A stretch of DNA of 64,000 nucleotides from Hydrogenovibrio sp. SC-1 (lineage in GTDB: Bacteria; Pseudomonadota; Gammaproteobacteria; Thiomicrospirales; Thiomicrospiraceae). Position numbers and translations under genes: made by a program. Location of the stretch: assembly GCF_002848135.1 (NCBI RefSeq), contig NZ_PKGB01000003.1, forward strand, positions 62,001 to 126,000. Reading direction: 5' to 3'. Positions 28,493 through 33,874 of the stretch are shown piece after piece. Each line of letters starts with the position of its first letter. The stretch's first letter is position 1. The notes beneath the pieces are model-generated. The model had not been told where the DNA came from. It saw only the letters and a program-made list of their open reading frames with translations, and did not search any database.

Positions 28493-29212
28493 ATGGCACA
28501 ACAAATACAACTGGGTGAACACCAACTAACGATTGTTAAAACCTCTCGACGGGGGTCGATTGCATTAAAGGTATCGCCTGATGGTGCTAGTTTGAGAGTG
28601 CCCAAGCAGTTTTCCGATCAAACCATTGCTGAATTGGTGGCTTCGGAAGCTGAATGGTTATTAGCAAGTATCAAGCAGCAACAGGCTGAACTGCCTGACT
28701 CGATGACACGCGAATCCGGTGGTACCGTGCCGCTATTCGGTGAGCCGATTCGTTATATAGAAGACCACACCACACCCGTGCGCAGCTTACAAGTGCGGCT
28801 AGACAATAATCAAGTGTGTGCCTTTTTAAAAACGCACCGCCAGTTGAAATCCCCCAAAGCAACCTTGCAAAAAAAATGGGCCGCTTTTTACACTGAGCAA
28901 TTAGCCGAGTATCTTCTGCCACGATTGGCTGTTTTAGCCGCTGAAATTGGGGTGACACCTGCCGATGTCACCATTCGCAACTATCGGTCTCGGTGGGGTA
29001 GTTGTTACAGTGATGGGCGACTACAGTTTAATTGGCGTTTAGCAATGGCACCTAAGCCGGTTATTGATTATGTGATTCAACATGAATTATGTCATCTTAT
29101 TCACCCGAATCATTCCCCCGCATTTTGGCAGTTGGTTCAGCAATATTGCCCTGATCTGGCTGAACATAAAGCTTGGCTCAAACAGCAGGGCCCAGCGTTA
29201 ATGGCTTTTTAA
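28493..29212 (+). CDS. YgjP/DUF45 zinc metalloprotease-like protein
   Basis: A 239-residue protein of the YgjP-like family (M48/SprT-related fold). The zinc site is HELCHLIHPNHSPAFW, with His197, catalytic Glu198, His201 and His207. RWGSC and RLQFNWRLAMAP are also family marks. The N-terminal half is a small beta-rich domain. No signal peptide is seen, so it is cytoplasmic. The biological substrate is unknown. It is convergent with the GGDEF-EAL gene and overlaps it by 15 bases. Confidence 0.85.
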   Translation: MAQQIQLGEHQLTIVKTSRRGSIALKVSPDGASLRVPKQFSDQTIAELVASEAEWLLASIKQQQAELPDSMTRESGGTVPLFGEPIRYIEDHTTPVRSLQVRLDNNQVCAFLKTHRQLKSPKATLQKKWAAFYTEQLAEYLLPRLAVLAAEIGVTPADVTIRNYRSRWGSCYSDGRLQFNWRLAMAPKPVIDYVIQHELCHLIHPNHSPAFWQLVQQYCPDLAEHKAWLKQQGPALMAF

Positions 29213-31475
29213 AAAGACTTCAAAGTCGGTTTTAGTCAGTGGTTTACTATAATAAAATCCTTGCGCTTCATAGCAACCATAATTAATCAGCATCTCAACT
29301 TGATCCTGGGTTTCGACCCCTTCGGCAATCACGTCCATCTCTAAGCTTTTGGCGATATTAATAATGGCTTTCACCAAGTTCGCATCGTCTTTATCTGTGG
29401 TCATATCATGGACGAAGGATTGATCAATTTTGAGTTTATCAATGGGGAAGTTTTTAAGATAGGATAAAGATGAATGGCCTGTGCCAAAGTCATCAATCGC
29501 TAACGAGAGCCCGAGTTCTTTCAAATGGGTCAAGGTTCGAGTAGCCTGTTCCGGGTTGCGCATAATTTGGGTTTCGGTGATTTCAAAGATGAGATCTTGC
29601 GGTACCATTAAGCTTTGAGCAATCGCATGTTGAACCGATGCCAGAAAATCAACTTGATTGAGTTGAATCAGCGATAAATTCAGGGACAACTTACCGGGTC
29701 TTAGGCCTTGCTGCTGCCAACGATAGACTTGTTTCATCGCCACTTCCATTGCCCAGCGATCCATTTCGACGATGAGACCAATTTCTTCTGCAAAAGGAAT
29801 AAATTGATCAGGCGAGATGAGTCCTCTTTGAGGATGGTTCCAGCGCATCAAGATTTCTAACCCTAAAACCTTCTGCGTGCTCATGTCAATTTGTGGCTGG
29901 TAATAAACTTCCAGTTCATTATGAGTTAGCGCATAGCGCAGTTCACGTTCTAAATTGACACGTTCATAGGCTTGCTTAGTCATGTCATGGTTGTAAAATT
30001 CATAGCGATTTTGGCCATTTTTCTTCGCTTTGTACATGGCTGCATCGGCATTTTTCATTAATGTAGATGCATCCGCGCCATTTTCTGGGAAAGTGGCGAT
30101 GCCAATCCCACAAGTAGAAAAGAGCTGGATTTCATCAAAAATAAAAGCTTGTCTAAATACGGATAATATTTTTTCAACCACAATAATCAAATCATGGGGG
30201 TGATGATATTGGTGAATGAGTATTGCGAATTCATCACCGCCAAAGCGGGCAATGGTATCTTCGTCTCGTAATTGATGTCGAATTTCGATGGCGACTTTTT
30301 GAATGAGTTTATCGCCCATTTCATGGCCAAAAGAGTCATTGACCTCTTTAAACCGATCTAAGTCTAGAAACAAAACGGCCAGCTTTTGATGCAGTCGTTT
30401 ACGAATGGATAAGGTATGTTCTACACGGTCAACGAATAATAGTCGATTAGGCAGTTGGGTTAAGGCATCGTGTTGTGCTTGGTGCTTGGTGCTGGATGTG
30501 GTAAGTTTTTTCATCAAACGCTTGAGCAAGCTCGTCTAATTCATCATACGTGCCTAAAGGACTACATAAAGCAGTCGCATCATTAGTGGTTTCTTTAACA
30601 CGTCTGAATAATTCTAAAATCGGTTGAGTAACCGAATTAGCCACATAATGAGCGGCAAAAAGGGTAATAATCAAGATCATTAGCCCGATAAATATGATCT
30701 TGGAAGTGGCTTCAATAATGGGTTGAAAGAAGTGTACTTTACGAATGCCAATGCCGACGGAAAGCCCTAATTGTTGGACAATATTTTCAGAGTGATGGTC
30801 ATTAGCATGGCTTAAATAGAGGTAATCCTTCTCAGGGTCGATAGTTTTTTCATATAGCAAATCCTCATTATGCGTAATGTGAGTAAAAGCGTATTTTAGT
30901 TTGGATGTATTATTTTTGATAATAGTGAATAAATCGTATTTCACCATTATAGCCCCTTGAGTGGTGTTGTAATATTCAATAGGTGATATGACAAAGAGAA
31001 ACCCTTTTTCAATAAAATAAGACGTCTGAGTCATGATCAGTGCCGTACGTAGGTGCGGTGATTGATTGTATTGAATGTCGCTTTGTTTCGTTGGGAAAAT
31101 CGGATGGCCATCATAATCCAGTAAACTGACGGCAAGGGTATCTTGATGATGCGTAAAGTTGTTAATTAATGGCGGTAGATATTGATCGCGACCCACGCTG
31201 TCGGTTAGAGCATTTACGATCAATTTATTTTTTGCTAGTTGGTGGGCATATTCAATTAAATGGTTAAAATTCTGTTCCAGACGATGATGGAGGGTATCTG
31301 CCTGGTTGAGATAGTAAGCTTTGCCTTGAGAATTCATCTGTTGATAGGTTTGCAGAGTGGCTGTGGTGGTGATAATTAATATACCGAATAGCACCAGCAG
31401 GTTAATCATCCACACAATACGGCTATGAATGCCTTTTTGATGCGTCGTTTTTTTAAAAAAAGGAATAGAGGGCAT
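29198..31475 (-). pseudogene. GGDEF-EAL sensor protein, frameshifted at an A6 run
   Basis: A membrane cyclic-di-GMP enzyme split into two frames. Frame 1 (31475 down) codes two membrane helices flanking a sensor domain of about 240 residues, then a HAMP linker ending GTYDELDELAQAFDE. Frame 2 (from about 30505) continues LTTSSTKHQAQHDALTQLPN, with an intact GGDEF motif (RFGGDEFAIL) and an EAL domain having EIL for EAL, FEITET, DDFGTG and EGVET. Removing one A from the A6 run (30506-30511) gives one 758-residue protein. The alternative TTG start at 30529 would yield a soluble GGDEF-EAL. The gene follows the binding-protein gene by 3 bases. Confidence 0.75.
30506..30511 (-). repeat. A6 homopolymer at the frameshift
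   Basis: Six T on the plus strand (A on the coding strand) exactly where the sensor/HAMP frame and the GGDEF-EAL frame must join. Five A would restore the frame (FDEKLTTSST). Confidence 0.8.
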
Positions 31476-31478
31476 TGG

Positions 31479-33666
31479 CTATTGACCTTCCGTTTCAGTT
31501 TTAACCAAACGGCCATCCGGAAGGAGTTTCACCATGAAAATATCCTTTTCATTAAGGGCATCATGATCTTTGGCCGAAAATGCTTGTTGATAATATTTAA
31601 GCACGCCTTGATACGGTGGCAAATTTTCAAGCGCTTGTTGGATGGCCTGTCTGTCAGTAGATTTTGCAGTCGTGACGGCTAAAGCCAACAGCTTGACGAG
31701 GTCATAGGCTTGAACCATCCCATTAACTGCATAGGGTGAGTCAATGGTTTTATAAGCCTGTAAATAGCGCTGCCATATCGGAGCCTTTTGTGTTTGGTTG
31801 GAAAAAATCCAAGTTTGAATTAAATGAAGGTTGAGTTTGGAAAACAAGGACTTCGTTTGATTAAAGAAGTCACCACTGGCGATCCCCCAATGGGAAATAA
31901 TGGGAAGCAGTGTTTGAGATTGGCTGAGGGATTTGACCAGGCCTGTTGCTTCTTTAGAGTTTGCCACTAGAATGATCGAATCAGCCCCTGATTGTGTTAG
32001 CTGGTGAATAATCGAATCAAAGTGTTGCTGACCTCGATTTAAGGTGACTTCCACGGCAATGGGAATTGATTTTTTAGCGAGATGATTTTTGATTTGTTCC
32101 AGATTGCCGCGACCCCAAATCGAGTTTTCCACAATGACGGCGGGTGAAGCGCATCGCAGCTCGGCACTAAAGTCTGCTAATTTTTTAGCCCCAATGTCAT
32201 CATCGATGGATAATCGAAATAGAAAGTCATGACTTCCATCCAGCTTTGTGATTTCTGATGCGGCAGCCCAAGGGATTAAATAGGGTATTTTCAATTGATT
32301 GATTAAAGGGCGCTCCGCCATAACAACAGCACTATGTACCCCCCCCATGACCGCAATCACCGGTTTTTCATTGGCGAGGTGCTTTAAGTTTTCTTGCCCT
32401 CGGCTAGCGAGGGTTCGGTGATCCATCGGTAGTAACACCAGCTCTTTACCTAATAGGCCGCCTTGAGCATTGATTTCGGCAATGGCCAGCTCCATGCCGC
32501 GTTTTATAGCAAGGCCTGCTTGGGGCGCTTCCGCAGAAAGATCCGCATTTAGGCCAATGGCTAGTTTGTCGGGTGTTGTCAATGCATATTTCTGATTCAG
32601 GTAGGTTTGGGTATAGCTAATAATGTCGCTACCAATGATCGGTTCAAATTGCTGAATGAGGTGAGTTGTTTTTTGAGCCAATGTTTGGCGTTGTGCGGGT
32701 GTGAGTTGGGTAATTTGTACGCCTTCCGCTTGAATCTGTTGTAAGAAGGTGTTTTCGCGCCGTTGGGTTTCTTGGCGTTCCCAGCGGGTTAAATCGCGAG
32801 CCGTTTTTATTAACAGCGTTTTTAAATCTTGTGGTAATTCGGGAAAAGTATGTTGGCTAAAGGCAAATACATAACTGAGATAGCCATGGTCACTGAGAGT
32901 TAAATGAGATTGCTCTTTGTGAAACCCCATGCTGGCAATCGAAACCAAGGGGTTTTCCTGGCCATCGACTACACCATCTTTTAAGGCTTGATAAGTGCTG
33001 TGAAAATCAATAGGGATAGCTTCAGCCCCTAAGGCGTTGAATTGGGATTCAAGCAGTCGGCTTTTCATAATGCGAAATTTTTTGCCCACAAAATCATCGG
33101 GGTGGGTATAAAATTGATTGCCAGTAAAGTGCTTGAAACCATTCTCCCAAAAAGTGATGCCCAGTAATCCGATGCTATTCAATTTCTGTAGCAGTAATTG
33201 ACCTGGTTCGCCATCCAAGAGTTGATAAGCATCTTCTCGCGTCGGGAATAGAAATGGTATGTCCGGGTATTGCATCGAGGGGATGGAAATACTCAATTTA
33301 GCGGAAGGAATCAATAAAATATCAAGTTGGCCCTTGCGGGTCATTTCAATCATTTGATAAACATTCCCCAATACTTGATTGGGAAAAATCTCTACTTGTA
33401 TTCGACCGTGGCTTTCTGTTTGAACCCGTTCAGCAAATCGTAAAACGGCTTGATGAAGCGCAGTGTTTTCCGGGGCGTCGAGTCCCAATTTCAAATGAAA
33501 AACAGAGGGTGTTATGGCAGTCAGCGGGGCTGGCTGGCTGGCTGGTTTGATACCAGCTAGAAAACTCATACAACGTCAGTGCAAATATCGCGAACACACT
33601 CATCGCAGCACTGATGGCTAAAATGGGCACTTTATATAATAGGGCTTTTATGCGGAGCATATCCAT
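31479..33666 (-). pseudogene. DctP-LivJ fused periplasmic binding protein, frameshifted at a GGCT tract
   Basis: The body (33569 to 31479) fuses two binding folds. A TRAP DctP-like domain (about 25-325) has FAERVQTESHGRI and VVDGQENP. An ABC LivJ-like domain (about 340-690) has GLAIKRGMELAIAEINAQGG and VIAVMGGVHSAVV. The ATG at 33569 has no ribosome site and no signal. In another frame, 33666 starts MDMLRIKALLYKVPILAISAAM, a signal anchor. The frames meet at (GGCT)4. With one repeat less, a single 727-residue anchored protein results. It is first in an operon with the GGDEF-EAL gene, so it probably feeds that sensor. Confidence 0.75.
33528..33545. repeat. Tetranucleotide repeat (GGCT)4
   Basis: Four full GGCT units plus GG (AGCC on the coding strand), sitting at the frame break between signal anchor and binding domains. 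Three or six units would put the gene in frame; four (as here) put it out of frame. Confidence 0.9.
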
Positions 33667-33874
33667 ACCTGATATTTATAGACGCTACAAAGTATTCTAG
33701 TATACCCTTGGAGATGCAACAAGCAAGCAAGAAGCTGTTTATGGGGGTGATTATATTTCAGGAGTTGCGTTCGATTAAGATGCGATAGAGTGGTCGCATA
33801 ATTGGATCACTTGTGATTGTTTTTGCTTAGTTTTAGCGCTATGCTATAGCTTGTTTAAATTTGGGGATAGGGTG

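Follow-up and report, generated by a model that had tools for sequence, protein, structure and literature searches.

In the 64,000-nucleotide stretch of Hydrogenovibrio sp. SC-1 DNA analysed here (the window), a conserved operon encoding a solute-binding protein (SBP) and a receptor has probably been knocked out recently by two separate slippage frameshifts, a reading to which we give a probability of roughly two in three. Both genes of the operon are frame-broken, both breaks sit at tandem duplications, and each duplication is the sole tract of its class in the 463 kb of the genome sampled, which comprised 399 kb of stretches and the 64-kb window. The SBP gene had previously been put forward as a possible phase-variable switch; a recently disabled nutrient-sensing operon is the more likely interpretation than an evolved on/off switch.

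Gene 1 (31479..33666, minus strand) encodes a membrane-anchored fusion of a DctP module, of the TRAP solute-binding type, with a LivJ-like module (Peripla_BP_6), and it is divided between two frames. Frame A (33430..33666, minus strand) opens with ATG 33666 and runs for 78 codons, coding for a hydrophobic N-terminal signal anchor (protein MDMLRIKALLYKVPILAISAAMSVFAIFALTLYEFSSWYQTSQ...); its stop lies just beyond a tract of 18 nt, (CCAG)4CC, located at 33528..33545 on the minus strand and reading (GGCT)4.5 on the plus strand. Frame B (31479..33569, minus strand) comprises 696 codons from an internal ATG at 33569 and carries DctP at residues 32-308 (PF03480, E = 1.6e-78), followed by the LivJ-like domain at residues 337-680 (PF13458, E = 7.5e-34). 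The sequence-only reading had proposed that the anchor frame and the DctP/LivJ frame meet in a tetranucleotide tract, and the junction indeed lies at 33528-33545. With one unit too many, the tract keeps the two frames apart. Since one unit is 4 bp and shifts the frame by one base, joining occurs at one lower or two higher copy number, in agreement with the copy numbers previously given for the ON state. The associated claim that four units mean OFF is correct in that the frames are unjoined, but it goes too far in that frame B has an ATG of its own, upstream of the tract, from which an unanchored 696-residue product could conceivably be made.

Apart from the tract in gene 1, the 463 kb sampled contained no period-4 tract of 15 nt or longer; a Markov model predicts about 0-0.2 period-4 tracts of at least 16 nt there. 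(CTGG)4 was found nowhere else in the 12 genomes of the genus that were searched. Given this rarity, both in the genus and in the sampled genome, the tract is not a chance match. At its upstream edge on the coding strand, an inverted repeat GCTGG/CCAGC (33541-33557) could form a small hairpin; the stem is weak, with z about -2, and we did not retain it as a candidate.

The next gene of the operon, gene 2 (29198..31475), lies on the same strand and encodes a membrane dCache-GGDEF-EAL receptor. It is also broken, into pieces of 342 and 443 codons, the first containing the membrane Cache region and the second the GGDEF (E = 6.5e-46) and EAL (E = 2e-81) domains. This break was absent from the sequence-only reading, and its presence in the partner gene changed how the break in gene 1 is to be read. 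In G003, the nearest relative, which is congeneric and syntenic, gene 2 is a single open frame of 783 codons, and alignment with that genome shows exactly 7 bp extra in the window at the break. The site is a 7-bp tandem duplication, (AGCACCA)2.7 (30475..30493, minus strand), and the 463 kb contain no second period-7 tract of 18 nt or longer. The extra 7 bp probably arose, as is typical of slippage, by duplication between the AGCAC copies on either side of the unit.

Relatives show what the intact operon looks like. In G003, genes 1 and 2 are each a single open frame and, as in the window, are flanked by an HDOD and a YgjP gene; both are also whole in three Thiomicrorhabdus-type genomes (G013, G019 and G032), and across these four relatives the open frame of gene 1 has 729-754 codons. 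A scan of GTDB genomes recovered 32 full-length homologues of gene 1, all unbroken, from Gammaproteobacteria, Betaproteobacteria, Magnetococcales and Campylobacterota. A membrane receptor gene lies directly downstream in 31 of them, either overlapping or, measured between stop-to-stop frames, at most about 20 nt away, and the remaining one (L062) is at a contig edge. All six receptors that were scanned gave a weak Cache match, and their C-terminal ends were GGDEF-EAL in three and a hybrid histidine kinase in the other three. Judging from these gene neighbourhoods, the pair is a conserved module. In most gene 1 homologues the N-terminal segment is clearly hydrophobic; the linker that follows the anchor is freely variable, and no period-4 tract of at least 15 nt occurs anywhere in the operon of any homologue, including that of G003. 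A gammaproteobacterial MAG (L070:5866-10636) carries a DctP-only version of 355 codons, without the LivJ half, beside a receptor gene of 1226 codons.

The breaks seem young. The codons beyond both of them have a dN/dS of about 0.10 relative to G003, compared with 0.04-0.12 in neighbouring genes (rough values, with dS near saturation), and thus still show purifying selection. No further stops were seen beyond either break; by our calculation, some should have accumulated had selection on these codons been absent for longer than about 2-4% of the branch. Together, these observations indicate that the breaks are either recent or revert often, and they argue against long-standing decay. Intact MutS and MutL argue against a mutator strain. 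Around 120 protein comparisons with relatives over the 463 kb, which would miss a break in an N-terminus as short and divergent as that of gene 1, revealed no frameshift besides the one in gene 2, and general assembly noise is therefore unlikely.

Slippage in the tract is very likely what broke the frame of gene 1: the relatives are in frame and the tract is one unit out, though G003 itself has no tract at that place from which an ancestral copy number could be read. The closest mutational parallel is the lacI hotspot, with three CTGG units, at which gain or loss of one unit forms the largest class of inactivating mutations (PMC3485313). As in lacI, whether in Escherichia coli or in the Pseudomonas putida test system (PMC3485313), the repeat in gene 1 is CTGG/CCAG, here on the opposite strand, present in 3-4 units within a coding sequence; a one-unit change shifts the frame, and the in-frame copy number would be about the same. 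The lacI repeat differs in being a laboratory mutation target, whereas gene 1 occurs naturally and its partner is broken as well. The strand arrangement also differs. In the P. putida system, insertions of CTGG predominated where the CTGG strand served as leading-strand template (PMC3485313); GC skew is positive, which suggests that the CTGG strand is here on the lagging-strand template, the arrangement that favours deletions. With this placement the strand rule does not favour insertion, which speaks mildly against the analogy.

One extra CCAG unit parts the anchor from the binding modules, which could then not be exported, and one extra 7-bp unit parts the Cache portion from GGDEF-EAL. Once either gene had been broken, the other would have been free to break. 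Each break could be reverted by slippage, and a working operon would require the reversion of both. Sequential loss of an operon that is not needed is simpler than a switch. That a sample of the genome otherwise clean should show two hits so close in time suggests favoured loss or relaxed selection, for example in culture. Having to invoke relaxed or adverse selection for a pair of independent hits on a single operon nevertheless counts against a recent double loss, and preserved codons would be just as expected were the sites still switching.

Two other repeats in the operon were considered as further switches and discarded. An eight-C run (G8 on the coding strand) lies in frame inside gene 1 at 32339-32346; it aligns to GGGCGGGG of G003 without a change in length, and such runs occur in the genome sample at the expected number. 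A (CAAG)3 tract (33720-33731), represented by one unit in G003, overlaps the -35 element of the likely promoter, TTGCTT-16 nt-TATACT (approximately 33698..33725, minus strand). This promoter was read by eye and does not figure in the list from the consensus scan; its -10 element, TATACT, is conserved in G003. By inspection, the (CAAG)3 tract extends upstream of the -35, such that loss of a unit leaves the hexamers and the spacer unchanged.

Frequent gain and loss of units in the CCAG tract, perhaps together with the 7-bp tract and the G8 run, might still toggle the receptor operon, and of the alternatives to recent loss we regard this as the least improbable, though unlikely. The tract lies exactly at the frame junction, in an N-terminal linker, a usual place for such repeats; a change of one unit alters the frame there; period-4, period-7 and G8 tracts coincide in one 4.7-kb operon; and the codons beyond both breaks are still constrained. 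Moreover, the phase-variable mod gene of Haemophilus influenzae has as its unit AGCC, which is CCAG read in a different register; there too the repeat lies within the coding frame and one unit changes the frame (PMC2651432). The tetranucleotide tracts of H. influenzae are, however, long and strain-variable, with 12-32 units in mod (PMC2651432), whereas the window has only 4.5 and 2.7 units at its two sites, no homologue, G003 included, keeps a tract at the corresponding place, and a second lock is present. A published screen required at least five tetranucleotide units as hypermutable length (PMC6321876), which the 4.5 units of gene 1 do not reach; a lower threshold, set for sensitivity, has also been used in a H. 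influenzae study. The unchanged length of the G8 run, and the ordinary frequency of G8/C8 runs, give toggling no further support. Restoring the gene 1 tract alone would leave the operon broken, since both locks must open together; if reversion is assumed to occur at about 1e-6 per generation per site, joint reversion would almost never happen, which would make a poor switch. Of the phase variation put forward by the sequence-only reading, what stands is that slippage very likely broke the frame and that the reversed state corresponds to the anchored fusion of the relatives. Repeated switching does not fare as well, given a tract shorter than those of known switches, the lack of a tract in homologues and the second break in gene 2, and phase variation at this operon is weakly supported. 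A more elaborate version, in which tetra- and heptanucleotide slippage separately switch the anchored double SBP and its c-di-GMP receptor as a two-lock contingency locus, is still less probable; if true, it would give a free-living relative of Thiomicrorhabdus a bet-hedged nutrient-to-c-di-GMP response.

A sequencing or assembly error that created one or both extra units is improbable. The assembly is a draft in 41 contigs, which leaves room for error, but the tracts of 18-19 nt are far below typical read length and are not homopolymers, the roughly 120 comparisons over 463 kb yielded no frameshift other than that of gene 2, and two errors in one operon would hardly arise by chance. Gene 1 might instead act unanchored from ATG 33569, the tract then altering the location of the protein rather than its expression, as the position of that ATG upstream of the tract in frame B, at the head of 696 codons, would allow. 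We consider this very unlikely: by eye, ATG 33569 is preceded by no evident ribosome-binding site and the product lacks a signal peptide, an SBP in the cytoplasm could not reach the Cache domain in the periplasm, and the N-terminal segment of most homologues is clearly hydrophobic. Slimmer still is the chance that programmed +1 frameshifting joins the frames during translation. In its favour, both breaks call for the identical shift and the codons beyond them are constrained; both proteins are nonetheless single-frame in relatives, the extra bases are exact repeat units, and no recognised +1 site was found by eye.

The intact gene 1 would encode a periplasmic protein, anchored in the membrane, that carries two solute-binding modules, of the DctP and LivJ types. 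The product of the intact gene 2 would be a membrane receptor, its Cache domain in the periplasm and its GGDEF and EAL domains in the cytoplasm. The ligand-loaded gene 1 protein probably docks on the Cache domain and thereby sets c-di-GMP turnover. By analogy with SBP-stimulated receptors, one or two ligands of a carboxylate- or amino-acid-like kind would be offered to Cache by the anchored DctP-LivJ protein, and c-di-GMP or a phosphorelay would be altered as a result. Most characterised pairs of an SBP and a kinase are adjacent in the genome, and not all neighbouring pairs interact (PMC11113362). The operon resembles these systems in that the SBP gene adjoins, across lineages, the gene of a membrane receptor whose sensor domain is periplasmic. 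It differs from them in that two SBP modules of different families are fused behind a membrane anchor and in that the receptor ends in GGDEF-EAL or in a hybrid histidine kinase depending on the lineage. In a limited search of open-access papers, we found no description of an anchored DctP-LivJ protein paired with a Cache receptor.

These data illustrate that a frame break at a repeat can mimic a switch when one gene is read alone, while the partner gene and the relatives favour an ordinary loss of function. In itself, the intact pair is of some interest, as it brings together anchored DctP-LivJ proteins and GGDEF-EAL or hybrid-kinase receptors in several proteobacterial groups and in Campylobacterota.
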